DNA from: an uncultured Bacteroidales bacterium
Lineage (GTDB): Bacteria > Bacteroidota > Bacteroidia > Bacteroidales > P3
DNA length: 64,000 bases
NCBI GenBank assembly: GCA_900315335.1
Contig: OMYR01000027.1
Location: forward strand, 1 to 64,000
Direction of reading: 5' to 3'
Shown here: positions 598 to 19,101 of the stretch, in pieces
How positions within the stretch are numbered: the stretch's first letter is position 1
Layout of the letters: the number at the start of each line of letters is the position of its first letter
Program-made: the position numbers and the translations under genes
Notes under the pieces: model-generated
The model's database searches: none
What the model saw: only the letters and a program-made list of their open reading frames with translations
What the model was told of the DNA's origin: nothing

Positions 598-635
598 AAA
601 AAAGAGAAAAAAACATAAAGAAAGGAAAAAACAAA

Positions 636-1799: not shown

Positions 1800-1953
1800 C
1801 CCGATAAGGCAGAAGACAGGGGGAAAGAAAAACTCCCCTGTCGCAAAGCCTAAACGGTGGCAGTGTTCCAACGGTGCTATATACTCCAACAGAGAAGCGG
1901 CGGAAGAGTACCAGAAGAGCATAAATCCAAAAGCAACGGTTAAGGAGATATAA
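1765..1953 (+). CDS. Small basic phage protein of unknown function
   Basis: 62 residues, lysine-rich at the N-terminus (KDKAAEKKTNSP) and ending SINPKATVKEI. It overlaps the end of the capsid gene by 35 bases in another frame, and its stop overlaps the next start at 1953. Tight packing in the late operon supports it being a real gene. The segment KRWQCSNGAIYSNREAAEEY could be a small folded unit. No family recognised; a head-completion or decoration role is possible from position only. Confidence 0.5.
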   Translation: MKDKAAEKKTNSPIRQKTGGKKNSPVAKPKRWQCSNGAIYSNREAAEEYQKSINPKATVKEI

Positions 1954-2330: not shown

Positions 2331-2583
2331 CGTAAGCGTCAGAGACAGCGTGGTGTTTTTGCAGCGCGGCGACACCCTACTTGTAAGAGAGATAAAATAT
2401 ATTGACAGAACACTGAGAGACACTGTGCGAATAACCGACACGCTGAGCGTTACAAAAACGGAAATACAGACGAAAACGGAAAAGAAAACCGATTGGTCAA
2501 AGACGATAAAATATTCAATAATAGGTGCGATAATGATAAGTATTGCAATCTATGTAATTAAAAAGAAAATAATAAAAAGATGA
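2158..2583 (+). CDS. Spanin-like lipoprotein with C-terminal membrane segment
   Basis: 141 residues. Basic N-terminus, hydrophobic stretch and lipobox ending LLFGSC (Cys about 35), then a long polar region rich in D, T and V (repeated 'RDSV/RDTV' motifs), then a transmembrane segment at about 118-136 before a KKKIIKR tail. A lipid anchor at one end and an inner-membrane helix at the other is the architecture of unimolecular spanins such as phage T1 gp11, which span the periplasm and fuse the membranes at lysis. 173 bases overlap the preceding gene in another frame. The family call is by architecture. Confidence 0.6.
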   Translation: MRQTGLKERWRDFAKQSTKRIAVSGLIVALLFGSCKTPQECRVHQTNKQNYSTILRDSVSVRDSVVFLQRGDTLLVREIKYIDRTLRDTVRITDTLSVTKTEIQTKTEKKTDWSKTIKYSIIGAIMISIAIYVIKKKIIKR

Positions 2584-3728: not shown

Positions 3729-3772
3729 AGAGTTTGAAAAGGATTTGAAAACGATTAAAAAAAGGATAAAAA

Positions 3773-4216
3773 ATGGAAGGACTGAATAATGGTATCCCCG
3801 CCATCAACGGCGAGATGTACGGCTGGGCTGATGTTCGTTGCTTCATCAACGGCACCTTGGTCAAGGGCATAACGTCCGTCAAGTATGAGGACAACCAAAC
3901 AATAGAAAAGGTGTATGGAGCAGGCAGGTATCCCATCGGCTACGGCAAAGGCAGGATAGAGTGCAGCGGCTCGCTCACCTTGTTGAAAGAAGAAATAGTA
4001 GCCTTGCAGAATGTGGCACCTGACGGCAGGTTGCAGGATTTGCCGAGTTTTGACATTGTGGTAAGTTATCTGCCCGAGAACGGAGTGATAACAACCGACG
4101 TGTTAAAGAACTGCAAGTTCACCAAGAACAACAGGGAGGTCAAAGAGGGCGACACTTCGATAGCAAGCGAAATTGAGCTTATGGTGATGAACATCAAATG
4201 GGGCAAAACAAAATAA
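3773..4216 (+). CDS. Tail tube protein
   Basis: 147 residues, 44 bases after the sheath gene and 9 before the tail chaperone, the standard position for the tube protein of contractile phages. The sequence is rich in beta-forming residues. The GAGRYPIGYGKGRIECSGSL stretch near residue 45 and the final MVMNIKWGK strand fit the Mu/P2 tube beta-barrel pattern. Its role is to form the inner tube through which DNA passes. Assigned from position, size and strand pattern. Confidence 0.7.
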   Translation: MEGLNNGIPAINGEMYGWADVRCFINGTLVKGITSVKYEDNQTIEKVYGAGRYPIGYGKGRIECSGSLTLLKEEIVALQNVAPDGRLQDLPSFDIVVSYLPENGVITTDVLKNCKFTKNNREVKEGDTSIASEIELMVMNIKWGKTK

Positions 4217-4225
4217 GATAAAACG

Positions 4226-4743
4226 ATGGAAAACACAACAAACAAAGAATATGTCGGTCTTGCTGCGGAGCAGGACGTCAAGGCTTGGAAAGAGAAATAC
4301 CGCAAGGTGGTACAGGTGGAAGTGGAAGATGAAGAGGCTGTATATGTGGGTTATCTTCATTCACCGGACATGAAGACGATGAGAGCGGCGATGGAGATAA
4401 GCAAGAAAGACGAGACGCAAGGGACGGAAGTGCTTATCAGGAACTGCTGGATAGACGGGGCAAAGATAATGCTTGAAGACGGTTTGTTGTACGTTCAGTT
4501 GGCAACGCAGGTACAGAAGATGTTCGGCACTGCCGTTGGACGGCTAAAAAACTTGTAGAGCACTACCGTCTTAACGGTAACGACGAAGAGAAATTCATTG
4601 AGAAAGGTAGTGCGATAATACGATATATGTTTAACCTTGATGCGGAAGCGATGGATGAAGACACTTGGGCAAGACGGTACAATGAAGCCATTTTCATTGA
4701 AGAATGGCGGTTAAAGAACTTTGCGATGCTGTTTAAGGAATAA
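4226..4743 (+). CDS. Tail assembly chaperone, long -1 frameshift product
   Basis: The zero-frame product is 110 residues, ending at a TAG at 4556-4558. Just before that stop lies A AAA AAC (4546-4552). A shift of -1 there joins a 62-codon frame (LVEHYRLNGNDEEKF through to FAMLFKE, stop 4741-4743), giving about 172 residues. Between tube and tape measure, phages of this type make a short and a long tail chaperone from one gene by such a shift (known for lambda G/GT and for Mu-like phages). The second frame has good coding character and no separate start near its beginning. Both products are probably made and bind the tape measure during tail assembly. Confidence 0.8.
4546..4579 (+). promoter_or_regulatory. 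Programmed -1 ribosomal frameshift site
   Basis: Slippery heptamer A AAA AAC at 4546-4552 in the correct phase (codons cta aaa aac), one codon before the zero-frame TAG. A 6-bp stem (taccgt 4564-4569, acggta 4574-4579) with a 4-base loop starts 11 bases downstream and may act as the pausing element. The spacer is slightly longer than the usual 5-9 bases, so the hairpin role is less sure than the slip site. Confidence 0.75.
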
Positions 4744-4748
4744 AAGGG

Positions 4749-4946
4749 TTATTTATCTTTAACTTCTTTGTCCTTGTTAGGCTGTTTGATATTGATTTGA
4801 AAAGTGATAGTAGTAGTGTTGTCCTGCTTTTTGGGAAATAATGACTCTTTAAGCATAGTATAAATTATATAAATAATGCCTAAAAATATCAGTACGAAAA
4901 AGACGTCAAGGACTATTGTTAAAATACTTTCAAGGATACTGACCAT
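4749..4946 (-). CDS. Small inverted membrane protein, possible phage moron
   Basis: 65 residues on the strand opposite to every other phage gene. A hydrophobic N-terminal half (about 3-32, with FFVLIFLGIIYIIY) forms one membrane helix; the rest is polar (TTTITFQINIKQPNKDK). It fills the only inverted gap of the late operon, and on its own strand a Bacteroidetes-type promoter lies 32 bases upstream of its ATG. Independent promoter, inversion and small membrane product are typical of morons expressed from the prophage, for example in superinfection exclusion, but no function is shown by the sequence. Confidence 0.5.
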   Translation of the reverse strand: MVSILESILTIVLDVFFVLIFLGIIYIIYTMLKESLFPKKQDNTTTITFQINIKQPNKDKEVKDK

Positions 4947-4977
4947 AACAAAAATGTTTTAGAATTGAATTACTCTG

Positions 4978-5010
4978 CAAAGGTATAAAAAAATATGGAA
5001 ACCAACCAAA
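4978..5010 (-). promoter_or_regulatory. Promoter for the inverted small gene
   Basis: Read on the minus strand: TTTG at 5010-5007, 21 bases, then TACCTTTG at 4985-4978, matching the Bacteroidetes -33 TTTG and -7 TAnnTTTG boxes. The predicted transcript starts about 25 bases before the ATG at 4946. The site overlaps the start of the tape measure gene on the other strand. Confidence 0.5.
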
Positions 5011-6947
5011 TAATATTACAGATAAATATTACAGGCGACGCAAATAATGTCGTAAATCAACTGTCAAAAAACATTCAAGGTCTTAACGTAACAAGTAAGA
5101 AGACGATAAATGTAATGACGGAGCAATTCGGCAAATTATCTCTATTCTGTAATCAAATGTCTCAGTCGTTGCAGGGTGTTGGAAATATACTGAAAGGAGT
5201 AAATGCTCCGGCAGTAGCGTTTGATAAATCATTGCAGGAATTATCGGCAATAACGGGTGTTACGGGTGATGGGTTAATTGAGATTGGCGATATGGCGCAG
5301 GATGTGGCGAAGAAGTTCGGCACCGATGCGGCACAGGGAGTTGAGAGTTTCAAGTTGTTGTTAAGCCAGTTGTCGCCGGAGTTGGGCAAGACGCCGGAGG
5401 TTATGAAGAAGATGGGCGAGAACATCGCCACGCTCTCCAAGACCATGGGCGGGGATACCACGGCAGCGGCGGAAGTTCTTACCACAGCGATGAACCAGTT
5501 TCAGGTGTCGATGGACGACCCGATAGCAGCCGAAAAAGAAATGGCGAGGATGATGAACGTTATGGCTGCGGCTGCAAAGGAGGGCTCGGCAGAGTTGCCA
5601 CAGATACAGGAGGCGTTGAAGCAAAGCGGTATGGCTGCCAAGGCAGCAGGAGTGTCATTCGAGGAGGCGAATGCCGCCATTCAGGTTCTTGACAAAGCAG
5701 GAAGAAAAGGAAGCGAGGGCGGTGTGGCACTGCGTAACGTGATGACGACACTTGCAGCGGGCAGGTTCTTGCCAAAGGATGTGCAGCAGGAATTAAGAGG
5801 TGCCGGAATTAATCTGAACATACTGACGGACAGAAGCAAGAGCCTGCAAGAGCGGTTGCAGGTCTTGAAGCCAGTAATGAACGACCAGGCATTGCTTACC
5901 AAGTTATTCGGCAGGGAAAACGTGTCGTCAGCAATTGCCCTTATAAGCGGCACAGAAGCTATGCGAGAGTATCAGCGAGCAATAACGGGAACGAACACGG
6001 CAACGGAGCAAGCCGATACGATTATGCAGAGTTATGAGGAGCGACACAACAAACTATTGGCAAAGATTGAGGGACTGAAACTGACGCTGTTTGACTTGAC
6101 AGGCGGAATATCAATGTACATGGGTACATTTATAGAAATGGTGATACCATTGGCACAGTCTATACCGGTATTTGAGGGTATATGGAAAATGATAAAAGGG
6201 ATAGGAACGGCAATAATGGCATTGAAGCCGGTGATAGCAACGATAAAAGTGTTCTCAATAACGGCATGCAGGAGTATAGGCACGGCGATAGCAAGTATTC
6301 CGATAATAGGCTGGATAGCCATGGCAATAGGTGCATTGGCAGGGCTGTTTGCTTACTTCTGGAACACAAGTGCTAAATTCCGTGCGACAATAAAAGGGTC
6401 ATGGGCTTATGTGGTCTCAATATGTCAGGAAGCGTGGGGAGTGATAAAAAAGATATTTTCCTCAATAGCCGATATGATAAAAGCGGCAATACATCTTGAC
6501 TTCAAAGGCGTCAAAGAGGCGGCGAAAGGCTTTACCAACGTGTTTGCAGACTTCGGCAAGAAGAGTGCAGAAGCCTATAACAAAGCATACGACGAAGAGA
6601 TAGCAAAGAGTAAGAAGAAAGAGCAAAGCAAACAAGCCAAAAACACAAAGGCAGCAGCCAAGACAAGCAATGTAAAGAGTGTAAATAAAGAAGAAGAGGA
6701 TTTGTCCTCGGCAGCAATACCGAGTATAGGTGGCGGCGGATATGGTTCTGCGGGTTCTGTGTCATCAAGTACAGGCGGAAGCGGTGGCAGAAGCGACAAC
6801 AGAAGCATAACGACAAATATTCAGAACCTTATCAGCGGAGGCATAACGATAAACACAACGACGATAAAGGAGAGTGCGAGCGAGATAAAACGCATAATAA
6901 TAGAAGCACTGAGTGAAGCAACAAACGAAGCGACATACGTAGGATGA
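4995..6947 (+). CDS. Phage tail tape measure protein
   Basis: 650 residues. The N-terminal half carries the TP901-type tape-measure core (KSLQELSAITGVTGDGL near 75, then Ala/Met/Gln-rich helices to about 260). A hydrophobic region with two or three membrane-like helices lies at about 375-460 (IPIIGWIAMAIGALAGLFAYF). After it come a Lys/Ala-rich linker and a Gly/Ser-rich stretch near 580-605. Such proteins set tail length and take part in DNA entry through the inner membrane. It follows the tail chaperone, whose products are expected to coat it. Confidence 0.88.
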   Translation: METNQIILQINITGDANNVVNQLSKNIQGLNVTSKKTINVMTEQFGKLSLFCNQMSQSLQGVGNILKGVNAPAVAFDKSLQELSAITGVTGDGLIEIGDMAQDVAKKFGTDAAQGVESFKLLLSQLSPELGKTPEVMKKMGENIATLSKTMGGDTTAAAEVLTTAMNQFQVSMDDPIAAEKEMARMMNVMAAAAKEGSAELPQIQEALKQSGMAAKAAGVSFEEANAAIQVLDKAGRKGSEGGVALRNVMTTLAAGRFLPKDVQQELRGAGINLNILTDRSKSLQERLQVLKPVMNDQALLTKLFGRENVSSAIALISGTEAMREYQRAITGTNTATEQADTIMQSYEERHNKLLAKIEGLKLTLFDLTGGISMYMGTFIEMVIPLAQSIPVFEGIWKMIKGIGTAIMALKPVIATIKVFSITACRSIGTAIASIPIIGWIAMAIGALAGLFAYFWNTSAKFRATIKGSWAYVVSICQEAWGVIKKIFSSIADMIKAAIHLDFKGVKEAAKGFTNVFADFGKKSAEAYNKAYDEEIAKSKKKEQSKQAKNTKAAAKTSNVKSVNKEEEDLSSAAIPSIGGGGYGSAGSVSSSTGGSGGRSDNRSITTNIQNLISGGITINTTTIKESASEIKRIIIEALSEATNEATYVG

Positions 6948-7501
6948 TGGATGATTTGAGCAAAAATATAGGCATAACGGCAATAAGGACAGCATCGCAT
7001 AGGATAAATTTTTCTCTGTTAAAACCGATAGAGCGAAAAATATCTTACGACCAATTTGCCAATACGCAACAAGAAGTTGAATACGACACAGCATTCATCT
7101 TAATGAATGAGGATGGCAAGTATTTAGACCTTTCGGGTTGTGTGCAAATGGATACGTCTATGAGTAAAAATATCGTCAGTACTCAGATACAAGGTTATAA
7201 TTCAACGGTAAAAGAATGGATAAGCAATTCGGACTATGTTATCAATCTAACAGTGTCTGTTGTTGCCGACAATGAGAGCGATGGTTATCCTGATAACAAA
7301 GTTAAAGAGATAATTAACTTCATAAGCGATAATCGTGCCTTGTTGGTACTGAACCAATATCTTAATGAGACGTTGAAAGTTACAAGGCTTGTAGTCAATT
7401 CTTATAAGCATGTACCTGAATTGTACAAGAACAACCAGACAATAACGATAGACTGTACCTCTGATGAAAGTTATGTTTTGGAAAAAGAAATAATTGCATA
7501 G
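6944..7501 (+). CDS. Phage tail/baseplate protein (probably DUF6046-like)
   Basis: 185 residues, start overlapping the tape-measure stop by 4 bases. It lies between tape measure and baseplate hub, where Mu has gp43 and T4-like tails have the LysM-type connector. The block YVINLTVSVVADN followed by a helix containing VKEIINFISDNRALLVL (about 100-130) resembles small Bacteroidetes phage proteins of the DUF6046 type, a name given from memory. Probable job: connects the tube end or hub to the baseplate. Confidence 0.5.
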   Translation: MMDDLSKNIGITAIRTASHRINFSLLKPIERKISYDQFANTQQEVEYDTAFILMNEDGKYLDLSGCVQMDTSMSKNIVSTQIQGYNSTVKEWISNSDYVINLTVSVVADNESDGYPDNKVKEIINFISDNRALLVLNQYLNETLKVTRLVVNSYKHVPELYKNNQTITIDCTSDESYVLEKEIIA

Positions 7502-7503
7502 TA

Positions 7504-8487
7504 ATGTTAAGATTGAACTGTGAAATATCAATATACCACGTACCTGAAGGTAGCACGAGTGTTGAGAAAATAATTATTCGCAATGTTCATTCGGTAAAGA
7601 TTAAGGGCGATGGCGATACATTAGCTGACACGTGCGAGATAGAGATGCCGAAGAGGACATTATGGATAAGGGAGAACAATTGCCCTATTCACAGGGGCGA
7701 CAAGGTAGAAATATATCTTGGCTATAACGATATAAAGGAGAAGCGTTTTGTTGGGTGGGTTAAAGACGTTACAGCGGGCATCCCGACAATAATCAAGTGT
7801 GAAGATGATGTATTTGTTTTGCGTTCAACGACTATTAAAAAGAAGTTATATACAAATACAACAATTAACAAGATTATTGAAGACATATTGCCTGCGGGTA
7901 TTCGTGTCAAGTTCGGGGGCGAGATGAAGATAGCCTCATGGCGAACTACTGCCACAACGGTTGCGGGTGAGATAGAAGAACTTGCCGAGAGTTTCCCAAT
8001 TAAGGCATTTTTTGCCCTTGATGATGACGGAGAGCCGACGCTTTTCGTTCATACGGTGATGACGGACGGCAGACGTAACGCCGGAACATTTGAGGAAGCA
8101 AAGAACATCATATCTCATAATTTGGAATACAGAAGAGCGGAAGATGTCAAGATACGTATCAAGGGCGTATCAAGGCAAACAAACGGCAAGACCATAGAAT
8201 ACTCCGAAGGTGATGGTCAGGAAATAACAAAGAACTACTACAACCTCACAATGGAGGAACTGAAAGCCATGGTAAAAAAAGAGATAAAAGCCGAGAAATG
8301 GAGCGGACTGAACGGAACATTTGAGACATTCGGGCGACCAATGGTAAGAAAAGGCGATACAGTGGATTTGAAAATAGAAGGAACGCAAAAAGCAAGATAT
8401 GTGGTAAAAGGGGTAACAGTAAGTTTTGGAACAGGCGGCTACCGTCAAGAATTAGAGACAAGTAGAAAGATATACTATTATGAATGA
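7504..8487 (+). CDS. Baseplate hub protein (gpD / Mu gp44-like)
   Basis: 327 residues. N-terminal beta region (VKIKGDGDTLADTCEIEMPK), then HRGDKVEIYLGY near 60, which is the 'G..V.I..G' pattern of late control protein D family hubs. An alpha/beta middle follows (TTINKIIEDILPAGIRV near 115), and a C-terminal VRKGDTVDLKIEG (about 285) seen in hub domains. It overlaps the spike gene by 8 bases. Hubs of this family form a trimer at the tube end that holds the spike. Confidence 0.78.
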   Translation: MLRLNCEISIYHVPEGSTSVEKIIIRNVHSVKIKGDGDTLADTCEIEMPKRTLWIRENNCPIHRGDKVEIYLGYNDIKEKRFVGWVKDVTAGIPTIIKCEDDVFVLRSTTIKKKLYTNTTINKIIEDILPAGIRVKFGGEMKIASWRTTATTVAGEIEELAESFPIKAFFALDDDGEPTLFVHTVMTDGRRNAGTFEEAKNIISHNLEYRRAEDVKIRIKGVSRQTNGKTIEYSEGDGQEITKNYYNLTMEELKAMVKKEIKAEKWSGLNGTFETFGRPMVRKGDTVDLKIEGTQKARYVVKGVTVSFGTGGYRQELETSRKIYYYE

Positions 8488-8926
8488 GATAGCAAGAAAT
8501 ATAAGAAAGATAGCAGCAAGCGGCAGTGCCGTTGTCTACGGAACGGTTCGAAGTGTGGATAAAAACACAATGGTGTGCGAGGTTATGTTGTATGACGGGA
8601 GTAGTGTTGTGGCTTCGCTTGTGGTAGGTGAGAAAAACAAAGGGATTATCCAAGTGCCGAAAACAGGGAGTTATGTCGCCGTTGTTATGGAAAGCAGAGC
8701 GACCGGGTTCGTTGTGATGGTGGAAGAAGTAGAGCAGATAATAATAAATGGCGGAGAGAATGGCGGGCTTGTAAATGTAAAGGAATTGGTGGAAAAGATA
8801 AATAATCTAATTAATACATTCAATAATCATACGCACCCGGCAACATCAGGTACGACGTCGCCAACCGCTTCGCAATTGACGACAATAAAACAAGACGATA
8901 TAGAGGATAAGAAAATAACACACTGA
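8480..8926 (+). CDS. Baseplate central spike protein (gpV / Mu gp45-like)
   Basis: 148 residues. An N-terminal OB-like beta domain (about 15-85) is followed by a short helix (LVNVKELVEKINNLINTF) and a terminal tip segment NHTHPATSGTTSP near 117-130. The HTH pair matches the metal-binding His-x-His of spike tips in P2 and Mu. The protein pierces the host outer membrane when the sheath contracts. Gene position between hub and gp46-like wedge is standard. Confidence 0.78.
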   Translation: MNEIARNIRKIAASGSAVVYGTVRSVDKNTMVCEVMLYDGSSVVASLVVGEKNKGIIQVPKTGSYVAVVMESRATGFVVMVEEVEQIIINGGENGGLVNVKELVEKINNLINTFNNHTHPATSGTTSPTASQLTTIKQDDIEDKKITH

Positions 8927-8927
8927 A

Positions 8928-9203
8928 ATGGTAGGAATATTACTTGAAGATTTGGACTTGGCTGTAAGCGATGGGCATATTGCGTTGGGCGATAACAGAA
9001 TGGATGTTATAGAGAATATAATAGACAGCAATGAGGGGGAATGGAAAGCAAATAAGTTCCTCGGTGTGGGGATAAAAAAGATGATAGCCCAAAGCGGAGG
9101 CGGTAGTGAGATACGGCAGAAAGTAGTCGAGAACCTGAACAGAGAGAACATAAAAGTGGAGAATATCCAGGTGGATAACGAGAATATAGATATAGAGATA
9201 TGA
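8928..9203 (+). CDS. Baseplate wedge protein, Mu gp46-like
   Basis: 91 residues, one base after the spike stop. The opening DLDLAVSDGHIALGDNRMDVIEN and the centre NEGEWKANKFLGVGIKKM follow the pattern of Mu gp46 / gp25-like wedge proteins, where a short N-terminal hairpin is followed by a 'GEW....GVG' core. It overlaps the next gene by 4 bases (ATGA), suggesting translational coupling. Joins gp47-like protein to the hub. Confidence 0.7.
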   Translation: MVGILLEDLDLAVSDGHIALGDNRMDVIENIIDSNEGEWKANKFLGVGIKKMIAQSGGGSEIRQKVVENLNRENIKVENIQVDNENIDIEI

Positions 9204-10018
9204 GCATAAACGAGATAAAAAAAGAACTGACGGACGAGTTTATAAGCAGCCCCGAAGTTAAAGAGAAATGGCAACTAAACGATAACGACAACTTTGAAGA
9301 TGTATTCAAAACCTCTTCAATAGAGAACCTGCTGTTCTACATCGTCGCCAGCATAATATACCTACAGGAAAAGATGCACTCGCTTTGGCTGAAAGATGTG
9401 GAACAGACTGCCCTTGCCACAAGGTACGGCACAAAACAGTGGTGGTGGAAAATGGCAATGATGTGGCAGGACGGCGACAGCGTGGAAATAAAAGACGATG
9501 GAGTGATAGGTTATGCTACGGAAGACGAAACGAAGAAAATAATAAAATACGCAGCGATAGTGTCAGAAGGTAGAGCGGTGTATATAAGAGTAGCAAAGGT
9601 TGTGGGTGATGATTTGGCAGCGTTGAGCAGCGAAGAGTTAAGTAGGTTTCAGGACTATATAGAAGATATAAAGCCACTTGGCATTATGGCAATAGGACAG
9701 AGTTTTGAAGCGTGCAGCATAAAGATAAATGCCACGGTATATTATGACGGAGAAAAAGACGGCAGCAGCATAAAAACAGCGTGCGAGAATGCAATAAAAG
9801 ACTATTTGAAAAACATAACATTCGGCGGCATTGTATTCAAAAGCAAGATAACAGACGCAGTGCAGAGCGTGGAGGGAGTAAGCGATATGGTTCTTTTATC
9901 GGTAACATACTCCGACAACGGAGAAAATGGTGTGATAAGCAGGTGTTATCAAGCCAAAAGCGGGTACTATACGGCAGAGATAAACATAAGCACATCGGTG
10001 GAGAACGCAAAGAATTAA
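9200..10018 (+). CDS. Baseplate J-like protein (Mu gp47-like)
   Basis: 272 residues. The N-terminal part is helical (KELTDEFISSPEVKEKW); the central and C-terminal parts carry alternating strands with AIGQSFEACSIKINATVYYDGEKD and GVSDMVLLSVTYSDNG, as in the Baseplate_J family. It sits between gp46-like and gp48-like genes, the fixed order of Mu, P2 and their relatives. It forms the ring of wedge arms that holds tail fibres. Confidence 0.75.
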   Translation: MSINEIKKELTDEFISSPEVKEKWQLNDNDNFEDVFKTSSIENLLFYIVASIIYLQEKMHSLWLKDVEQTALATRYGTKQWWWKMAMMWQDGDSVEIKDDGVIGYATEDETKKIIKYAAIVSEGRAVYIRVAKVVGDDLAALSSEELSRFQDYIEDIKPLGIMAIGQSFEACSIKINATVYYDGEKDGSSIKTACENAIKDYLKNITFGGIVFKSKITDAVQSVEGVSDMVLLSVTYSDNGENGVISRCYQAKSGYYTAEINISTSVENAKN

Positions 10019-10026
10019 AACGAAAG

Positions 10027-10491
10027 ATGACAATAAATTGGAGAAGATACATACTTCTTATGTTACCCATAAGGCTGCGAGAAAGCAAAGCGTTGTTTGC
10101 TCTTATATGGTCGCTGACGGCATACACTCGCAAGAAATATGAGCAAGAGTATAACGGCATACTGCTCTTGACGGAAGAGTTGCGATATACTTCCTGCGTC
10201 AAAGCGATAAAAGAACTGCTGAAAAAACGCTTTGGTGAGGGTATCGAAATAACGGACGGAACGGATTATAATGTATCGTTTTTCAAAGCCAATGAACCGA
10301 CGGGCGAAGTAACGTTTGCCTACGGCGAAGATGAGACGGAAGAGAAAACGATGATAATACCCGAGAAAGAGAATACCATGGGTGTGGATTTTATGGTGGA
10401 AGTGCCGGTGCATATAGATAAGGACAGAGTGGCGGGGTTTATAAGGAGGTATGTGTTTGAAGGGGTTAAGTTTGATGTTCATTCTTTTTAG
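10027..10491 (+). CDS. Baseplate/tail protein, Mu gp48-like position
   Basis: 154 residues from the ATG at 10027, chosen because it lies 9 bases after the gp47-like stop and follows cgaaag; the longer frame upstream overlaps the gp47-like gene and is not needed. It opens MTINWRRYILLMLPIRLRES, with a helical region to about residue 70, then beta strands ending FIRRYVFEGVKFDVHSF. This is the place of the last baseplate gene (gp48 / gpI) that links baseplate and fibres. Confidence 0.6.
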   Translation: MTINWRRYILLMLPIRLRESKALFALIWSLTAYTRKKYEQEYNGILLLTEELRYTSCVKAIKELLKKRFGEGIEITDGTDYNVSFFKANEPTGEVTFAYGEDETEEKTMIIPEKENTMGVDFMVEVPVHIDKDRVAGFIRRYVFEGVKFDVHSF

Positions 10492-10737
10492 AAAAGAACG
10501 AACCAAGAAAAGCGTACTTTTTGTAAAAAGTACCAAAAACAATGGATGCGGAAGGTTTGTCGCTCTCGCCTACGAGGGTTTGCCAATGACTACCGCTGAG
10601 AAATTTTCGTAATGGCGAAAATTTATAAGCGGTGCGACTCTTTTCGCTGACGTTGATGAGGGTTTGATGCGGATTTTTGAGTGTGGTTGGTAATGTTTGG
10701 TTGGATTTGATAATTAATAATAAAAAAATAGTGAGAT
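10492..10737 (+). other. Structured intergenic spacer inside the tail operon
   Basis: The longest non-coding gap inside the phage. It contains a palindrome GTACTTTTT-gt-AAAAAGTAC (10514-10533). It also contains an interrupted hairpin with stems ACCGCT/AGCGGT (10592-10597, 10628-10633) and AAATTTTCG/CGAAAATTT (10601-10609, 10616-10624). No open frame of note. Its end is AT-rich (taattaataataaaaaa) before the next ATG. It could be a processing, attenuation or promoter region separating baseplate from fibre genes. Confidence 0.5.
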
Positions 10738-11337
10738 ATGAAGGTAATAACGGATAGTAATAAGACAAGGCAGGTGCAGCCGGTGGATTTTGCGTTTTTG
10801 TCGCAGGCGGACAGCGATGTGGTCAAAGCAGTGGAGAGAATGCTGCGGACTATGTACGGCTGGGGCGAGGACTACCCTATCATCATAAGCGGATTGGAAT
10901 ATAACACGTATAGCAAGCCGCCACAACAGAGTTCATACAAGATAACAAGCGGTAAAGTATTGTGGAACGGAGCAATATATGATGTGGAAGAAGTGCAACT
11001 GAAAACAGGACTTAACACGGTAGGCAGCATATTAAACAGCGTGTATTTTGTGATGAAAAGAAAAGTGGTAGCACCCTCGCCTGTATATGACAAGAATATG
11101 GCAAAAACCATTAACTGCCACTACGAGACATACGGGCAGTTGCAACAGGTGTTCCAACCCATAACGATAAACGGAGGTAACAACAGCGGTATAATAGTCG
11201 GAGCACTGTTAAGCGTCAAATATACGGATATGTATAGAGTGGAGAGTATAGCGTCCATGGTGGGCGAGATGATAGATGCTTTGGAACAAAGAATAAAGAA
11301 GTTGGAGATGATAAAATTGCCGATAATAAGCCAATAA
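10738..11337 (+). CDS. Phage virion protein of the fibre region, unknown function
   Basis: 199 residues. It opens VITDSNKTRQVQPVDFAFL, has a beta-rich middle (SYKITSGKVLWNGAIYDVEE near 65-85) and ends in a helix with ALEQRIKKLEM, a likely coiled coil for trimer formation. First gene after the structured spacer and the first of the variable fibre/appendage block. No catalytic motif. Probable adaptor or appendage between baseplate and fibres, from position. Confidence 0.55.
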   Translation: MKVITDSNKTRQVQPVDFAFLSQADSDVVKAVERMLRTMYGWGEDYPIIISGLEYNTYSKPPQQSSYKITSGKVLWNGAIYDVEEVQLKTGLNTVGSILNSVYFVMKRKVVAPSPVYDKNMAKTINCHYETYGQLQQVFQPITINGGNNSGIIVGALLSVKYTDMYRVESIASMVGEMIDALEQRIKKLEMIKLPIISQ

Positions 11338-11341
11338 AACG

Positions 11342-11617
11342 ATGAAGATACAAAGCGAGATAGGACAGTCATTGATAGACATCGCTCTGATGAGCGTCGG
11401 AGTGGAGCATTTGGCAGATATTGCAAAAGCAAATAATTTGCCGATAGATGCTGTATTTGAGAGTGTGCAGGAGGTGGAAGTTCCGCAATATACAGCCGCA
11501 ATATCTCGCACGGTGTATTGCACGGGAATAAGCGAACAAAGTAAATGGATATTGACAAGCGGAGAATGGGACGACAAAGAAGTGTGGAAAGATGAAGAGT
11601 ATTGGAAAGATAAGTAA
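11342..11617 (+). CDS. Small LysM-like phage protein
   Basis: 91 residues. The segment GQSLIDIALMSVGVEHLADIAKANNLPID (residues about 8-37) follows the LysM pattern 'G.SL..IA......L...N.L', which is common in short Bacteroidetes phage tail proteins. The acidic and aromatic tail (WDDKEVWKDEEYWKDK) carries three Trp. Starts 5 bases after the previous stop. Could bind glycan or act as a tail completion protein. Confidence 0.5.
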   Translation: MKIQSEIGQSLIDIALMSVGVEHLADIAKANNLPIDAVFESVQEVEVPQYTAAISRTVYCTGISEQSKWILTSGEWDDKEVWKDEEYWKDK

Positions 11618-11663
11618 AAGGTGTTAAAAACATATTAAAAACCTATTAAAATGCTTTTAAGAT

Positions 11664-12407
11664 ATGATTGAACAGATATTAAACAACGAGGGTGGAAAGA
11701 GTGTAAGAGAGAAATTGAACAGGGTTATAGACCTGTTGAACAACTTGCAAATAATGGCGACATCATACAAGACACTTGCCGATAAACCGATGATAAACAA
11801 CAGGGAGTTGGACGGCGATGTGTCGCTTGAAGAAATAGGCGTGGAGGATTTGGTACAACAAAGAATAACGGAAAACAACCAAAGGTATTACACCGCCGAA
11901 CAAGTCTCGGAGATGATACAAGAGAGTATCAACCAGTTGGAAGGTGTTAATGTTGATTTAAGCAAGTACGCAACAAATGACGATGTCGATAAGAAATATA
12001 CGGAACTATACAACGAAGTAATTCCGAAAGATTTGACGCTTATGGAAGCGTTTGACGGAAATATTGCTGATTTTGAGGACGGACGAGTATATTTCTACGA
12101 TATAGTCAAAGACAAAGGGACTTTTATTTACGGAAAACAACTGCGGCAGTTGATAGGCGGTGGCAGTGGAACAACACCGACAAGCGACAAAGAAATCCGC
12201 CAAATGGCATTTACAGAGGGAAGCCAGGAAGCAAGGCTGACGGATGTAAGAGGTTTTGACTTTGAGACATCAAGAGTAACAATAAACGGAGTAATGAAAT
12301 ATCCGACAATAGACTACATAAAAGCAGGTGAGATTGCCATTCAGTTCAGAGAATATAAACTTGAAACAGGCGATGTGGTGGTAATGGAGGGCTATTTTAA
12401 CTCTTAA
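11664..12407 (+). CDS. Probable tail fibre / appendage protein
   Basis: 247 residues. The N-terminus is helical (EQILNNEGGKSVREKLNRVIDLL). The stretch MINNRELDGDVSLEEIG near 50 is of a type often seen in phage fibre linkers. A coiled coil runs at about 75-120, and beta strands at the end include VTINGVMKYPTIDYI. Similar in layout to the two fibre genes downstream. No function beyond virion appendage can be read from the sequence. Confidence 0.5.
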   Translation: MIEQILNNEGGKSVREKLNRVIDLLNNLQIMATSYKTLADKPMINNRELDGDVSLEEIGVEDLVQQRITENNQRYYTAEQVSEMIQESINQLEGVNVDLSKYATNDDVDKKYTELYNEVIPKDLTLMEAFDGNIADFEDGRVYFYDIVKDKGTFIYGKQLRQLIGGGSGTTPTSDKEIRQMAFTEGSQEARLTDVRGFDFETSRVTINGVMKYPTIDYIKAGEIAIQFREYKLETGDVVVMEGYFNS

Positions 12408-12421
12408 ATCATAGAAGCGTT

Positions 12422-13009
12422 ATGGCAGAGAAGATACAAAGAGGAAGGATAAAACCGCAACAGTTGGAACACTTCAATCGTCAAAGAGTGGAAGAAGCGT
12501 TTGAGGATAAGAGTATTCCCGAAAGCAAGGTAATATTGGATGAGATAAACGCTAAAATCAAGAGATTGGAAGAAGTAACGGGAGCCTCAACGTATCGCAA
12601 ACAGTATGATTTGACAACAGACAACGGCAACGGTAACGGCGAGATAATATGCGAAGATATGGTATTTGACTACACGCAGCTGATGTATAAAGTGTTTGGC
12701 GAAGTGAGAATAAAAGTACCGAGAGAGTCAAGTTATTATCTGAACATAAACGTAGGACAGCGATTTGATGAGGGCGAAATAACCATAGGCGAAACGAAAT
12801 ATCCGATACAGGACAATATGACTTTTGTGTATGAAGACGTGAGAGAGATAGTGTTTTCAACAAATATATACTTATGGATAAGAACGCTGACGGTGCAGGA
12901 ATACAAACAATCCAAGATACCGACAAAGGTGTCGGAGTTGGAGAATGATTTGAAGTTTGTGGCGGCAAGGATAGAAAACGATGATAATTTGGTAATAGAA
13001 ATAAAATGA
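12422..13009 (+). CDS. Phage appendage protein of unknown function
   Basis: 195 residues, 14 bases after the previous gene. N-terminal charged helix (about 1-55, with EEAFEDKSIPESKVILDEI), a Gly/Asn-rich turn (DNGNGNGEI), then a beta-rich domain from about 75 to 165. Not recognised. Position within the fibre block and the helix-then-beta layout suggest a small fibre or fibre chaperone. Confidence 0.45.
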   Translation: MAEKIQRGRIKPQQLEHFNRQRVEEAFEDKSIPESKVILDEINAKIKRLEEVTGASTYRKQYDLTTDNGNGNGEIICEDMVFDYTQLMYKVFGEVRIKVPRESSYYLNINVGQRFDEGEITIGETKYPIQDNMTFVYEDVREIVFSTNIYLWIRTLTVQEYKQSKIPTKVSELENDLKFVAARIENDDNLVIEIK

Positions 13010-13041
13010 AGTAAAAATAAAAAAACAAAATTAAAGGAATT

Positions 13042-14286
13042 ATGGCAGATTTAAGTAAAATTACGGTAAATGGTGTAACCTACACCTTTGCGGACGAAAA
13101 GGCGAGACAAGATATTCTTAACGTGCTTAACCAATTGACGGGAGCAATGCGGTATATCGGTACTTGTATTGATGAGGCAAATATTACTTCCGACGGGATA
13201 TATACTCACGTGTATATCAAGACAGGAGCCGCAGGTTCTACAACGGCGATATGTTATTATCACGGCACAAAACCGACAGCGACAACATACGTATTCGGCG
13301 GAGTAACCTATACGCTGACGTATAAGGAAGTCAAAGCCGGGGATGTGGCAATATCAGGTAGATTGGAGTATGTGTTTTCGGACGCAGATAATTTATGGCA
13401 CGAGTTCGGAGATACAGGGAGTTTGAAAGCCCTTGCGTTCAAAGATAAAGCAAGCGGAAAATTTAAGCCCAAAGGTAGTGTGTCAAGTACATTTAGCGGA
13501 ACACCGCAGACGGTAAAACATACGGTAACAAACAGCGGAAGCGTGTCGGCAAGCGGAAGTTTTACTCCGAGCGGAACGGTAACACAAGGAAAGGCAGCGA
13601 CAGACTCATTTGTTAAATCGTATCCCGGAAGTACAAGTAAAATGGTGCAGACAACAATACATGATACGCCAACGCCACAAAAGAAAACAATACCAATACA
13701 TAACTATATTGATGGTTTATCGGAATTGGGAGCAAAACTTGTGAAAAAGCAGATAACAGGAGTATCGGGGAGTACCAAGGCATCCAAAGCAAATGCTACC
13801 TCTGTTCCGGGAATGAGTGCATCAGTAAGTGGCGATACATTGATATTGACGACAAAGACTGTATCGTTCTCAGACGTTACGGTACCTGTTGCAGGAAGTG
13901 CTGAAAGTGTGGCGACAGGCGATGTATCGGAAACAGGTACAGGAGCGAGAGTTTTAACAGGCGTAAGCGGAAATAAAATGCCCGGATTGGCATCAACAAC
14001 AGATATTGAAGTTGTTACAGATATTACGGCAGGAGCAGAAGTTATAGTTGCAACAGGAGAGGTTAATACAAGTGCGACAGGCGACAGCGTTATGGTCGGA
14101 ATGGGAACACCAACGAAAGGTAATGCAGTAACAAGTGTGGGTAACCCTACATTCAAGGGAACAGCAGGAAATGTAAGTGTTAGTGGAACAAATACAGGAG
14201 TGGTGATAGCAGACCATACTATAACACCGGCAGGAAGTGTGTCAAGTTCGTTCAGCGGAACAGAAGAAACAGTAACGGTTCGATAA
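13042..14286 (+). CDS. Tail fibre protein with Ser/Thr/Gly-rich repeats
   Basis: 414 residues. The N-terminus MADLSKITVNGVTYTFADEK is shared in pattern with the next gene and is probably the baseplate anchor. From about residue 145 the protein is low-complexity beta repeat: GSVSSTFSGTPQTV near 150 returns as GSVSSSFSGTEETV at the very C-terminus, with variants such as GSVSASGSFTPSGTV between. Such repeats form long beta shafts in receptor-binding fibres. Probable host-recognition protein. Confidence 0.65.
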   Translation: MADLSKITVNGVTYTFADEKARQDILNVLNQLTGAMRYIGTCIDEANITSDGIYTHVYIKTGAAGSTTAICYYHGTKPTATTYVFGGVTYTLTYKEVKAGDVAISGRLEYVFSDADNLWHEFGDTGSLKALAFKDKASGKFKPKGSVSSTFSGTPQTVKHTVTNSGSVSASGSFTPSGTVTQGKAATDSFVKSYPGSTSKMVQTTIHDTPTPQKKTIPIHNYIDGLSELGAKLVKKQITGVSGSTKASKANATSVPGMSASVSGDTLILTTKTVSFSDVTVPVAGSAESVATGDVSETGTGARVLTGVSGNKMPGLASTTDIEVVTDITAGAEVIVATGEVNTSATGDSVMVGMGTPTKGNAVTSVGNPTFKGTAGNVSVSGTNTGVVIADHTITPAGSVSSSFSGTEETVTVR

Positions 14287-14296
14287 CCAAACAACA

Positions 14297-14331
14297 ATAT
14301 GCGTGGCAAAAAACAAAGCCACGCATATTTT
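14297..14331 (+). terminator. Terminator after the first fibre gene
   Basis: Perfect 11-bp inverted repeat ATATGCGTGGC (14297-14307) and GCCACGCATAT (14318-14328), 10-base A-rich loop, followed by a short T run. It covers the ATG at 14299, which is one reason to place the next gene's start at 14347. It may attenuate expression of the downstream fibre and lysis genes. Confidence 0.75.
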
Positions 14332-14346
14332 AACAAACAAAAAAAT

Positions 14347-15213
14347 ATGGCAAATATCAGTAAAATAAATTTAAACGGTTCGGAGTATAGTATAGAAGGA
14401 AAAGAAGCGTATAATTGCAAAATAATGACATTTGCGAATTTGGGCATAAGCATAGGTGTAACGCATAATCTGTACAGCAACGCAACATTGGCAAATGAGA
14501 TAAATGACGGATTTGTTAAGTTTATAATAAAAGGAGCAAGCATAACAAATAACAACACCATAATAAACGTGGTTTCGTCGGCAGGTAGCGGAGCGGTATA
14601 TACAGCGTTATTTAACAAATACGGTGCAGGAAAAGAACTGACATTTATCTTTATCAATGCGGCTTCGGCATCAAATGAAACACCCTACTATACCGTAAAA
14701 GCAAGAGGCGTGGAAGCCAATCACGACAACACGATGAAAGTGCCGAAAAGCGGTTACGGAGCGAACCTTATGGTTAAAGTGATGTGCAGCGGTACAAGTG
14801 ATACAAGCCCGAAGGCAATAGTTACCGAAATGGCGTATATAGGCGATGATGTGCTATACAACTACATCAATAAAGTGGTTGCTCCACCGACAACCGTTAG
14901 CGGTTTGGACACAACGGCAATAAGTAACGCATTCAAACAGACAACAAACGTTATAGTACCCGTAGTAGGAAGTAACAGTTGCCCGACTGTTACACTCAAT
15001 AATCTTTATAGTAGTATGTTAACCAATACACCCGCAGGAGTAATTCATAACCTTATAATAAAAAATACAGGAAGCCAAAGTGCGTGCATACCTTTTACAG
15101 GAGGATATAGCGTAAATGTGGCAGCAAATAAATGTAGGGTTATCCCAATAGTGGCAATAAAAGTGGGTACAATAAATATTGTAGTGCCTGTTAATGTGGA
15201 TATGTCGTATTAA
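14347..15213 (+). CDS. Second tail fibre / receptor-binding protein
   Basis: 288 residues from the ATG at 14347; the earlier in-frame ATG at 14299 lies inside the terminator stem. N-terminus MANISKINLNGSEYSIEG matches the anchor of the preceding fibre gene, while the rest is different: beta-rich with TIINVVSSAGSGAVYTALF near 75 and a final strand block NIVVPVNVDMSY. Two proteins with one anchor and different tips suggest two alternative or co-mounted receptor-binding proteins. Confidence 0.6.
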   Translation: MANISKINLNGSEYSIEGKEAYNCKIMTFANLGISIGVTHNLYSNATLANEINDGFVKFIIKGASITNNNTIINVVSSAGSGAVYTALFNKYGAGKELTFIFINAASASNETPYYTVKARGVEANHDNTMKVPKSGYGANLMVKVMCSGTSDTSPKAIVTEMAYIGDDVLYNYINKVVAPPTTVSGLDTTAISNAFKQTTNVIVPVVGSNSCPTVTLNNLYSSMLTNTPAGVIHNLIIKNTGSQSACIPFTGGYSVNVAANKCRVIPIVAIKVGTINIVVPVNVDMSY

Positions 15214-15228
15214 AAAACTAAAACAAAG

Positions 15229-15660
15229 ATGAAAACAAGCGAAAAAGGAATTGAATTAATTAAAAAATATGAAGGGCTGAAACTTTCTGCCTATCTCTGC
15301 ACCGCAGGGGTATGGACTATCGGCTACGGACACACAAAAAACGTAAGACAAGGGCAGAAAATAAATATCGGCGAAGCCGAAAGGATCTTAAAAGAAGATT
15401 TGAAAGCGTTTGAAAAAGGTATAAATGATTTGAACCTTAAAATAAATCAAAATCAGTTTGACGCATTAGTGTCGTTTGCTTTTAATGTAGGATTGGAAAA
15501 CCTAAAAAAGAGTACGCTGCTCAAAAAAATAAAAGCAAATCCAATGGACAAAAGTATAGAAAACGAGTTTATGAGGTGGGTCTATGCAGGTAGCAAAAAG
15601 TTGGACGGACTGATAAAAAGGAGAACCGAAGAGGCTGAAATGTATTTTAAGGAGGGATAA
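15229..15660 (+). CDS. Endolysin, GH24 T4-type lysozyme
   Basis: 143 residues, the usual size of GH24 endolysins. Glu15 (KKYEGLK), Cys24 and Thr30 (LCTAGVWTIGYGH) give the E-x8-(D/C)-x5-T triad, with Cys in place of Asp as in several phage lysozymes. Also typical are RILKEDL near 51 and QFDALVSFAFNVG near 78. It cleaves peptidoglycan glycan chains at lysis. No export signal is present, so it needs a holin; the holin/spanin-like genes lie far upstream (1953-2583), an unusual split. Confidence 0.93.
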   Translation: MKTSEKGIELIKKYEGLKLSAYLCTAGVWTIGYGHTKNVRQGQKINIGEAERILKEDLKAFEKGINDLNLKINQNQFDALVSFAFNVGLENLKKSTLLKKIKANPMDKSIENEFMRWVYAGSKKLDGLIKRRTEEAEMYFKEG

Positions 15661-15815
15661 AAAACCTCTGACTTATGAAGAGAAGCTCTCACCCTTCTCA
15701 ACAATTAAAAGTGTACATAGCACTACGACAGAGGTATGCTCTGTTCGGTGCTATGGACACCCGTTTTTATGTGAGAGATTGCAAAATTACAAAAAAATTA
15801 ATAAATAAAAGAAAG
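15661..15815 (+). other. Structured spacer with a long hairpin after the endolysin
   Basis: A short stem GAGAAG/CTTCTC (15680-15685, 15694-15699) precedes a long interrupted hairpin at 15711-15760: GTGT, CATAGCAC, ACAGAG pair with CTCTGT, GTGCTATG, ACAC across small bulges, 18 base pairs in all. It is followed by ccgttttt, so it may be a terminator. The open frame that crosses it has no coding look. It could also act as a small RNA or a leader controlling the methyltransferase gene. Confidence 0.55.
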
Positions 15816-16658
15816 ATGAAAAATTATACAAAAGCACCTTTGCCCTTTCAAGGACAAAAAAGAGGTTTTCTAAAACTTTTCAAAGAGTGTTTAAACGATT
15901 TTAATGACAAGGTCATATTCGTAGATTTGTTCGGAGGTAGCGGACTGTTGGCTCATACGATTAAACAGCAACGCCCGGACGCAAGAGTGATATACAACGA
16001 TTATGATTGGTATATTAATAGGCTAAACAATATCAGCAGAACAAACGATTTATTGGCAAAAATACGCTTTGAAATTCAGGATTTTACACGGGGGGGGGGA
16101 TTTTCAAAAAAGGTAAGACTGCCCGAAGAGTTGCGTAGAAAGATATTGCAGATAATATATGACGAGGAACAAAAAGGCTATGTGGATTATATAACGCTGT
16201 CGGCATCGCTGCTGTTCAGTGGGCAGTTCGCAACGAGCTATGAAGAGTTGGCAAAAGAATGTTTTTACAACAAAATAAAGCAAAGTGAATATAATGCCGA
16301 CGGGTATTTGGACGGAGTAGAGATAACACATATAGACTACAAGGTGTTGTTTTCGTTATACAAGTATCTGCCGAATGTTTGTTTTGTTTTAGACCCTCCG
16401 TATCTTTCAACAGATTGCAGTTCCTATACTTCTTATTGGGGGCTTAAAGATTATTTAGAAGTGCTTGACTTATTGCAATGGACTTCGTACTTTTACTTTA
16501 CGTCCAACAAAACATCTATCGTGGAATTGTGCCAATGGTTGACAATGCACCCGAACATCGGAAATCCTCTCGAAGGAGCACAGTGTAAAGAGGTGGCGGT
16601 TAATATCAATAAAACTTCTAAATATAAAGATATGATGTTCTATAAAAAGATTGGATGA
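15816..16658 (+). CDS. D12-class N6-adenine DNA methyltransferase (Dam-like)
   Basis: 280 residues from the ATG at 15816 (preceded by gaaag); the frame upstream runs through a hairpin and is rejected. Motifs in D12 (Dam) order: PLPFQGQKR (8-16), DLFGGSG (37-43, AdoMet binding), DPPY (193-196, catalytic), then SNKTSIVEL near 230. Last gene of the prophage, like the DNA-modification gene mom at the right end of Mu. It probably methylates phage DNA against host restriction. A run of ten G lies in codons 92-95, so the gene may switch on and off by slippage. Confidence 0.88.
   Translation: MKNYTKAPLPFQGQKRGFLKLFKECLNDFNDKVIFVDLFGGSGLLAHTIKQQRPDARVIYNDYDWYINRLNNISRTNDLLAKIRFEIQDFTRGGGFSKKVRLPEELRRKILQIIYDEEQKGYVDYITLSASLLFSGQFATSYEELAKECFYNKIKQSEYNADGYLDGVEITHIDYKVLFSLYKYLPNVCFVLDPPYLSTDCSSYTSYWGLKDYLEVLDLLQWTSYFYFTSNKTSIVELCQWLTMHPNIGNPLEGAQCKEVAVNINKTSKYKDMMFYKKIG
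16090..16099 (+). repeat. G10 homopolymer tract in the methyltransferase gene
   Basis: Ten G in a row inside codons 92-95 (R-G-G-G), in otherwise AT-rich DNA. Gain of one G reaches a TAG after about 17 codons; loss of one reaches a TAA after about 9 codons. Both truncate the protein before DPPY. As written the frame is ON. Confidence 0.9.
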
Positions 16659-16677: not shown

Positions 16678-16706
16678 AGCAGGGCAACTCCGCCCTGCTG
16701 GAAAAA
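16678..16706 (+). terminator. Terminator after the methyltransferase gene
   Basis: Perfect 8-bp stem AGCAGGGC (16678-16685) and GCCCTGCT (16692-16699) with a 6-base loop, then ggaaaaatttt. Ends the phage rightward transcript. Confidence 0.75.
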
Positions 16707-16880
16707 TTTTGCAAAAAAATGACCAAACGTTTTGCAAAAAATGACTTTTTGAATTTCCGATTATAATTATCTTTCTTTACAGGATTATAAAAATAAAAAA
16801 ATCCGACATCATTTGCCAGACTCTTAACACAAAAACAACTTAACTTGGGATAACCACAAAGTGTGTGGTAAAAATTTTTG
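16707..16880. repeat. Direct repeats near the probable right end of the prophage
   Basis: Two near-identical copies of TTTTGCAAAAAA(A)TGAC lie at 16707-16723 and 16730-16745, 23 bases apart. Further right are AT-rich DNA and a small palindrome ACCACA/TGTGGT (16853-16858, 16864-16869) just before tRNA-Asn. Transposable Mu-like phages carry repeated transposase sites at each end, and other prophages end at tRNA genes, so the boundary probably lies here, but no target duplication can be tested without the left end. Confidence 0.4.
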
Positions 16881-16954
16881 CGCCCCTTCTAGGACTTGAA
16901 CCTAGGACCCCATGATTAACAGTCATGTGCTCTAACCAACTGAGCTAAAGAGGC
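16881..16954 (-). tRNA. tRNA-Asn (GTT)
   Basis: 74 bases. Read on the minus strand, acceptor GCCTCTT pairs with AAGGGGC, the anticodon stem-loop is CATGACTGTTAATCATG with anticodon GTT, and the T loop contains GGTTCAAGTCC. CCA is not encoded. It has its own promoter and lies next to the presumed prophage end. Confidence 0.96.
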
Positions 16955-17218: not shown

Positions 17219-17812
17219 CTATATAGCTAAAAAAGTCTGAAAAATTACTTTAATGTCACTAATCAGAGTCCTCCGTTGAAGATACTCCAAATTTATTCTC
17301 AGTTTGTCAGGCATAATCACATCTATATAGTATTGCTTCGGATTTTGCTGTTGTTCCAATAACTCGTTTTCATTTCTGTACGCAATCGATGCAGGATCGG
17401 TTATTCCGGGACGCACCGACAAAACTTTTAATTGTTCTTCATTGTACATATCCACATAATAACGTACTTCGGGACGAGGTCCCACAAAAGACATATCTCC
17501 AATTAAGACGTTAAACAATTGAGGCAATTCGTCCAACTTAAATTTGCGAATAAAATACCCAACTTTCGTAATTCTGCTATCTCTTCCCCCTATGGTAATC
17601 AATGAACCCTTATCGGCATTGACACACATCGAGCGAAATTTGTATAACACAAAATCCTTGTTATTACGCCCCACTCTTTTCTGCCTATAAAAAACTCCGC
17701 CCTTACTTGTCAATCCTACCGCCAACGCAATAATCACAAACATCCAACTTAAAATCAGCAGGCCAAACAATGAAAATACTATATCAAAAAGTCTTTTTGC
17801 CATTACACCCAA
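17219..17812 (-). CDS. Polyprenyl-phosphate sugar-1-phosphate transferase (bacterial sugar transferase)
   Basis: 197 residues. One N-terminal membrane hairpin (about 10-35), then the family motifs YRQKRVGRNN, YKFRSMCVNAD, KFKLDELPQL and LIGDMSFVGPRPE, and RPGITDPASI. This is the small PglC/WcaJ C-terminal type that moves a sugar phosphate onto the lipid carrier and starts glycan synthesis at the inner membrane. The aminotransferase gene lies 47 bases upstream on the same strand, suggesting the sugar is an amino sugar such as a bacillosamine type. Start Met1 or Met4 (MAKRLFDI). Confidence 0.9.
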   Translation of the reverse strand: MGVMAKRLFDIVFSLFGLLILSWMFVIIALAVGLTSKGGVFYRQKRVGRNNKDFVLYKFRSMCVNADKGSLITIGGRDSRITKVGYFIRKFKLDELPQLFNVLIGDMSFVGPRPEVRYYVDMYNEEQLKVLSVRPGITDPASIAYRNENELLEQQQNPKQYYIDVIMPDKLRINLEYLQRRTLISDIKVIFQTFLAI

Positions 17813-17859
17813 CTATTTTGCAAAAATTTGAATACAGAAACAATATTCAAATACCAAAA

Positions 17860-19101
17860 TTATTTCTGTGCTACAACCTCATCATGCACCCTAATCAGAT
17901 TTTCCAAAACAAAATCCACTTGTTCATCAGTTAATTGAGGATATAACGGCAGTGTTATCTCTTGCTTAAACACTTTGTTTGCAATAGGATAATTCGAAAT
18001 ATCAAATCCCATATTTTTGAAAACGGTTAAAGAAGGCATCGGTATGTAATGAACATTGGTTGCAATCTCTGTCTCTGCCAATTTCATAATCATATCATCT
18101 CTTTGTTGCTCATTTATATCCAAGATTCTCAACGGATATAAATGATACGAGGATTCAATATTTTCTTTATGGCTATCCTCTCCGTTTTCAATAGTTTCAA
18201 AAGGAAGTTTTGTCCACTTAAACTTCTGCAAACAAGAATTATAACGATTAAATATGCGTTTTCTTTCTTTAAGTAAGTAGTCATACTTGCGTATTTGAGC
18301 CAAAGCAATCGCAGCATTAACGTCAGGCATATTACATTTCATTCCACCTCCAAGAACATCATATCGCCAAGAAGCAAGTTGGTTTTTCGTGAAAGCATCT
18401 TTCGTCTGACCATTCAAAGACATTACCCTAAACCATTTTTTCAACTCTTTATTATCAAAAGGTGTGGGTAAATTCAAACAAATCATACCACCCTCGGCAG
18501 AAGTAATGTTTTTAACGGCGTGAAAACTCAACACACATATATCTACATAGTTTGCAACGCTTTGAGAATTAATTTTAGCACCAATTGAGTGGGCGCTATC
18601 CGAAAGAATCATTATTCTCCCCAATTTATCCTGGTTATCAGAGTTTGGAGTATATAATTTAAGTATTTCTTGCGAATTAATAATTTCTTTGATTCTAAGA
18701 TAATTACACGGAATACCGCCTATATCGACCGGAATAATGGCTTTGGTATGCGGATTTATGGCTTGCAATATCTTTTCTGTATCGATAGTCATATCTTCAC
18801 CTATATCCACCATAACAGGTTTAGCTCCTGCTTCTATTACAGCCAAAGCTGTTGCACAGTATGTATATGCAGGTACAATAACCTCATCATCGGATTTTAA
18901 CCCTAACCATCGCAATGACAATATTGCACCGCTCATCCAAGAATTTACAGCACTGCAAGCAGGACATCTAAGCAATTTTTCCGTTTCTTCTTCCAACGCC
19001 TTGACTTTTGGACCTGTCGTTATCCAACCGCTTCGCAAGGAATCATCTACTTCTTTTATCACATCTTCGTCTATGTAAGGTGGTGAAAAAGATATCTTCA
19101 T
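17860..19101 (-). CDS. DegT/DnrJ/EryC1 family sugar aminotransferase
   Basis: 413 residues. N-terminal FSPPYIDEDVIKEVDDSLRSGW and the ITTGPKVKALEEE motif of the family; PLP-binding Lys in SFHAVKNITSAEGGM near 195; the conserved histidine region HYIPMPSL near 355. These enzymes transfer an amino group from glutamate to a keto sugar nucleotide. Its partner sugar transferase follows. Together they point to one step of capsule, O-antigen or glycoprotein glycan synthesis. A TAATTTTG box lies about 65 bases upstream. Confidence 0.9.
   Translation of the reverse strand: MKISFSPPYIDEDVIKEVDDSLRSGWITTGPKVKALEEETEKLLRCPACSAVNSWMSGAILSLRWLGLKSDDEVIVPAYTYCATALAVIEAGAKPVMVDIGEDMTIDTEKILQAINPHTKAIIPVDIGGIPCNYLRIKEIINSQEILKLYTPNSDNQDKLGRIMILSDSAHSIGAKINSQSVANYVDICVLSFHAVKNITSAEGGMICLNLPTPFDNKELKKWFRVMSLNGQTKDAFTKNQLASWRYDVLGGGMKCNMPDVNAAIALAQIRKYDYLLKERKRIFNRYNSCLQKFKWTKLPFETIENGEDSHKENIESSYHLYPLRILDINEQQRDDMIMKLAETEIATNVHYIPMPSLTVFKNMGFDISNYPIANKVFKQEITLPLYPQLTDEQVDFVLENLIRVHDEVVAQK

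Follow-up and report, generated by a model that had tools for sequence, protein, structure and literature searches.

The window, i.e., the whole 64-kb stretch of DNA that was analysed, contains a long run of guanines inside a phage methyltransferase gene, and the question raised by this locus is whether the run switches the enzyme on and off. The run consists of exactly ten G at 16090-16099 on the forward strand, and elsewhere in the window neither G nor C occurs in a run of at least six. Under a first-order Markov model, 0.0025 G runs and 0.005 C runs of at least ten would be expected here (about 0.007 jointly). The tract follows codon 91 of a 280-aa methyltransferase and lies between the AdoMet-binding motif I (residues 37-43) and the catalytic DPPY (residues 193-196). 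The initial annotation, which had reported ten G inside coding DNA between these two motifs, was exact in both length and placement. The run is probably a phase-variation (contingency) site that is carried by a transposable prophage and operates via slippage.

The gene spans 15816-16658 on the forward strand and encodes a DNA adenine methyltransferase of the D12 (alpha) class. The first ATG of the open reading frame, at 15675, was rejected as the start; the homologs align from the ATG at 15816 onwards, and the protein is therefore taken as 280 aa. The class assignment is based on a Pfam MethyltransfD12 match above the gathering score (3e-9, 37.4 bits against a cut-off of 22) and on three motifs of the homolog alignment that occur in the order X, I, and IV on the forward strand: PLPFQGQK (15837-15860), which is nearly invariant in the alignment, DLFGGSG (15924-15944), and DPPY (16392-16403). 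A match to the DNA methyltransferase family phrog_56 (1e-29) and the phage structural and lysis genes in front of the gene further bear out its first reading as a phage DNA methyltransferase. All residues that are invariant in alignments of 22 and 33 homologs are kept in the window protein, which makes the enzyme look functional in its ON state. No solved structure was found for it by sequence search alone; its AlphaFold model (pLDDT 88) matches the folds of Dam, DpnM, and T4Dam. The tract region (residues 91-100) has a lower confidence in the model and forms a loop between two helices (residues 73-91 and 104-119). In this surface loop the ten G encode RGGG, and in the alignment the loop is shorter by four to six residues in homologs that lack the tract. 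A restriction partner was not seen beside the gene, and the enzyme is classified from its sequence as an orphan D12 adenine methyltransferase.

The position of the tract makes the reading frame dependent on its length. In silico translation of simulated tract lengths leaves the frame open at 7, 10, and 13 G, and the window allele with its 10 G is in frame, i.e., in the ON state. Nine G lead to a product of 99 aa and 11 G to one of 107 aa, both without DPPY, which agrees with the early stop that had been proposed for one G more or less. As in a contingency locus, the tract is a pure repeat far above chance length within a gene, and one unit gained or lost alters expression in silico. Exact-flank searches for other alleles of the locus gave no second copy.

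The methyltransferase is part of a Mu-like prophage, of which the window contig holds the right part only; the left part lies off the contig. PHROG and homolog matches identify the late region (1-15660, forward strand) with a prohead protease, major head protein, tail sheath, tape measure, baseplate, tail fibre, and lysozyme, and the genes at 37-15660 are structure and lysis genes of a contractile-tail phage. The nearest head and sheath proteins are those of Mu-like phages of Porphyromonas and Flavobacterium, and the record of the Porphyromonas phage includes transposase and MuB-like genes. The phage lysozyme (endolysin) gene at 15229-15660 (forward strand, match 4.6e-45) directly precedes the methyltransferase, which is followed by a terminator-like hairpin, gcagggcaactccgccctgc, read from the sequence at 16679-16702 (forward strand). 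The prophage ends at 16765 with CCGATTATA (16757-16765), the last bases of both the window prophage and the Porphyromonas Mu-like phage BK068089; just past this motif the sequences of related prophages part ways. Mu-like late genes combined with this Mu-type right end and differing flanks characterize the element as a Mu-like prophage. A PF09299 search of the host genome for the MuA/MuB transposition genes gave no match, and the control likewise matched nowhere. The methyltransferase is the final gene before the right end, a slot that mom occupies in phage Mu. Just beyond the end lies a host tRNA-Asn (16880-16954, reverse strand), followed by sugar-transferase-like and aminotransferase-like genes of the surface polysaccharide type that were noticed by eye at 17219-19101 (reverse strand). 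Elsewhere in the host genome (G000:C7:4850-5167), a decayed second copy of the 3' part of the methyltransferase is followed by right-end-like sequence and is probably the remnant of another Mu-like prophage.

The host genome itself is rich in long G runs. It is available as a 2.1-Mb draft of 66 contigs, which was searched by pattern with inspection of the tract surroundings. There are 14 runs of exactly six G, 36 of at least eight, and 26 of at least nine; the run lengths show no geometric fall and do not follow a chance distribution. Across members of the genus, the number of runs of at least nine G varies from 0 to 41 per genome. Several of the host runs fall within reading frames. A type I hsdM gene (C41:32243) carries, after its first 52 codons, a G10 tract that keeps the frame (ON). 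A G9 tract divides an FrhB/FdhB-like gene of a polysaccharide cluster into two frames (OFF), and a TupA-like gene, also of a polysaccharide cluster, is likewise cut off at its tract. Hexapeptide transferases and a radical SAM/SPASM gene have long G tracts inside or adjoining them, and examples of the runs of at least nine, besides the hsdM tract, are located at C8:2948, C8:5977, C8:13892, C8:25122, C15:7221, C15:7291, and C16:24685. hsdM and surface polysaccharide genes are usual targets of phase variation. When hsdM relatives were checked for a change in tract length, a tract was found only in one distant paralog. An hsdM-like gene of another species of the genus (L251 in G013, C run at 2464-2472) has an in-frame G9, and a shift of +1 or -1 truncates it. 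Some host tracts are intergenic. Part of these belong to a repeated, short ORF-like element that starts with ATGACMAAAACAATCGCAAATATCAC and ends about 60 bases on in a long G tract (L326-L330, at G000:C19:18272, C33:12740, C39:15341, C48:91533, and C61:1448), and the number of true contingency genes is therefore below 26. With 16 G, an intergenic run at G000:C37:27941-27956 exceeds all other G runs seen in the genome and is a candidate for a promoter-spacing switch.

Relatives of the methyltransferase were not found in viral and genome contigs by peptide-pattern scans with the single protein and were recovered with an alignment profile. The unselected set contains 170 homologs including the window gene, and G or C runs of at least nine occur in three of them, each in frame: the window gene (G10), the genome locus L062 (G13, ON), and L189 (C9, ON). 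Four more tract-bearing genes form a selected set, as they were found by searching viral contigs for tracts near the conserved motifs. All four are from IMG/VR. L283 carries a G9 tract in the same loop as the window gene and is ON. The tracts of L271 (G8, ON), L269 (G9), and L273 (G9) are located between motifs X and I; the latter two are OFF, with products of 40 and 50 aa, in metagenome assemblies in which a one-base homopolymer error is possible. Over the gene, L269 and L271 share 82% identity; if the ends are left aside, no indel other than a single G separates them within it. A scan of the loop site with AAT-GAT spelling added no more family members.

On a tree that uses only the part of the gene after motif I, the seven tract-bearing genes require six changes, at least five of which are forced by well-supported branches. 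This enzyme family has acquired G or C tracts on at least five independent occasions. Given the gains that the tree requires and the states of L269 and L271, tracts arise repeatedly in length-tolerant stretches, with both frame states in existence. That the tract could switch the enzyme, as had been suggested from the window sequence alone, is well supported by three lines of evidence: the frame logic, the excess of G runs in the host together with its ON and OFF genes, and the ON and OFF alleles of related phages.

Whether such switching is of any use to the phage is less clear-cut. The run could be an accidental hypermutable site that has grown by slippage in a variable loop and mutates frequently, with the resulting switching being unselected and useless. 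This explanation shares the slippage step with the phase-variation reading and denies only its use. It stays the main rival because the two nearest relatives (G007 and G004, approximately 70% identical) have no tract. The loop tolerates a change in length, and the host genome has many long G runs, intergenic ones among them. Among the 170 unselected homologs, tracts of at least nine show no significant excess, with three in 138 kb, the window's own gene among them, as compared to four in 445 kb of flanking DNA. Set against this are the at least five independent gains within one enzyme family, which fall where the sequence is not conserved and in two cases hit the same loop, and the presence of other host tracts in classic phase-variable gene types, namely hsdM and surface polysaccharide genes. 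On balance, an accidental site is a real possibility but not a probable one.

A further explanation is that the tract is stable and encodes a fixed glycine-rich RGGG loop without any switching. The frame is open at the observed length, and the loop accepts extra residues. However, glycine has four codons, and yet the tract is spelled in pure G in a window of 37% G+C. Natural ON and OFF alleles exist in relatives, and in Campylobacter, phase variation usually rests on G/C tracts (PMC8355987), all of which renders a fixed loop improbable. Long homopolymers can also cause polymerase slippage. Transcriptional or ribosomal slippage at the run would yield a fixed ratio of full-length to truncated enzyme from one genotype and would act in any tract-bearing gene, but no observation favours it and the tract is not conserved, so that it is quite improbable. 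Least probable of all is an assembly or sequencing error that hides a true length other than ten: homopolymers are error-prone and the genome is a 66-contig draft, but the 280-aa frame with every conserved motif is open at precisely the given length, and doubt could concern only the exact length of the long G run, which is itself certain.

According to the phase-variation reading, slipped-strand mispairing during replication would shift the tract by one G at a rate far above that of normal mutation. Such slippage in the cell is suggested by the length of the tract, by the host's many long tracts with their ON and OFF genes, and by the L269/L271 pair. Tracts of 3n+1 length (7, 10, and 13 G) would give the full methyltransferase, and all others a stub of approximately 100 aa without DPPY. 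A lysogen population and the phages it releases would consequently be a mix of methylating and non-methylating forms. By analogy with Mu Mom, the mixed forms would differ in how their DNA is protected from restriction, and a regulon switch is the less favoured outcome; in the mom slot, the likely use of such a switch would be to protect phage DNA when it enters the next host, and an effect on host gene expression is possible.

The closest mechanistic parallels are repeat-driven methyltransferase switches of other bacteria. In the type III mod genes of Haemophilus, Neisseria, and Helicobacter, a homopolymer or short repeat lies in the coding sequence, one unit gained or lost truncates the product, and random ON/OFF expression is expected, as in the window gene. 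The switches of Campylobacter work alike, and Helicobacter pylori has a G9 tract in a phase-variable methyltransferase (PMC12003011). In contrast to the mod genes, which are host restriction-modification genes, the window gene is an orphan D12 methyltransferase of a transposable prophage.

Other systems resemble the locus in gene position. The hankyphage (Bacteroides phage p00, BK010646) encodes a homolog of 48-49% identity (L050) as the last gene before its right end, as in the window, and this end has been called the methyltransferase end (PMC12135933). Unlike the window gene, the hankyphage gene has no G tract. The com-mom genes of phage Mu likewise place a DNA-modification gene at the right end. 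Mom is controlled by Com, Dam methylation, and OxyR and involves no homopolymer. It is a different enzyme from the window methyltransferase, and no com gene was seen in the window prophage. In SuMu, a member of the same protein family (38% identical) is located at the right end directly after com. The related genes L283, L271, L269, L273, and L062 belong to the same enzyme family and carry in-frame or frame-shifted G tracts; the tract sites differ, with four of them between motifs X and I, and the tracts were acquired independently.

Taken more broadly, transposable phages of Bacteroidota may repeatedly make the methyltransferase in their mom slot phase-variable, with a lysogen releasing methylated and unmethylated virions as a bet-hedge; this generalization is a tentative one. 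If true, the hedge would balance hosts in which unmodified DNA is restricted against others in which the modification is of no use or carries a cost. A repeat-tract switch in a temperate phage's own modification gene that recurs in related phages makes bet-hedging of DNA modification a question that can be asked. Among the open-access papers searched, none describes repeat-tract switching of a phage-borne methyltransferase.

The region between the lysozyme and the methyltransferase harbors a second conserved feature, a strongly covarying structured RNA of approximately 130 nt (15657-15789, reverse strand) that carries a -7 element and a terminator of its own. It is a neighbour of the poly-G switch and not part of it. 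The stretch upstream of the methyltransferase folds strongly in 139 of 179 relatives. The Bacteroidota -7 element (TAnnTTTG) occurs in leftward orientation in 95 of the relatives as compared to 10 expected from shuffles and 14 in the opposite orientation, and a T run occupies the terminator position in 69 of 90 (24 expected). In the helices predicted by RNAalifold, 16 of 17 pairs change on both sides while remaining paired, as do 11 of 11 in a larger set of 60 sequences. The feature at 15657-15789 is probably a leftward small RNA, as judged from these sequence comparisons.

A covariance model finds the RNA in most of the phage loci, in the hankyphage (L050, 4783-4927), and in the Porphyromonas Mu-like phage (L265, 33111-33242), whose record lists no methyltransferase. 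It also occurs in 3 of 61 related genomes, each time on a contig that bears a methyltransferase of the window's family. In Bacteroidota Mu-like phages it lies close to the right end, in most cases immediately upstream of the methyltransferase, and it resembles a small RNA gene of these phages. No Rfam family matches it, and it may represent a new small RNA of phages. The tail of the RNA before the T run is complementary to its apical region, with a mean longest pairing of 8.0 as compared to 6.5 for shuffled partners, and pairing between the tail and the apical arm may allow two mutually exclusive folds.
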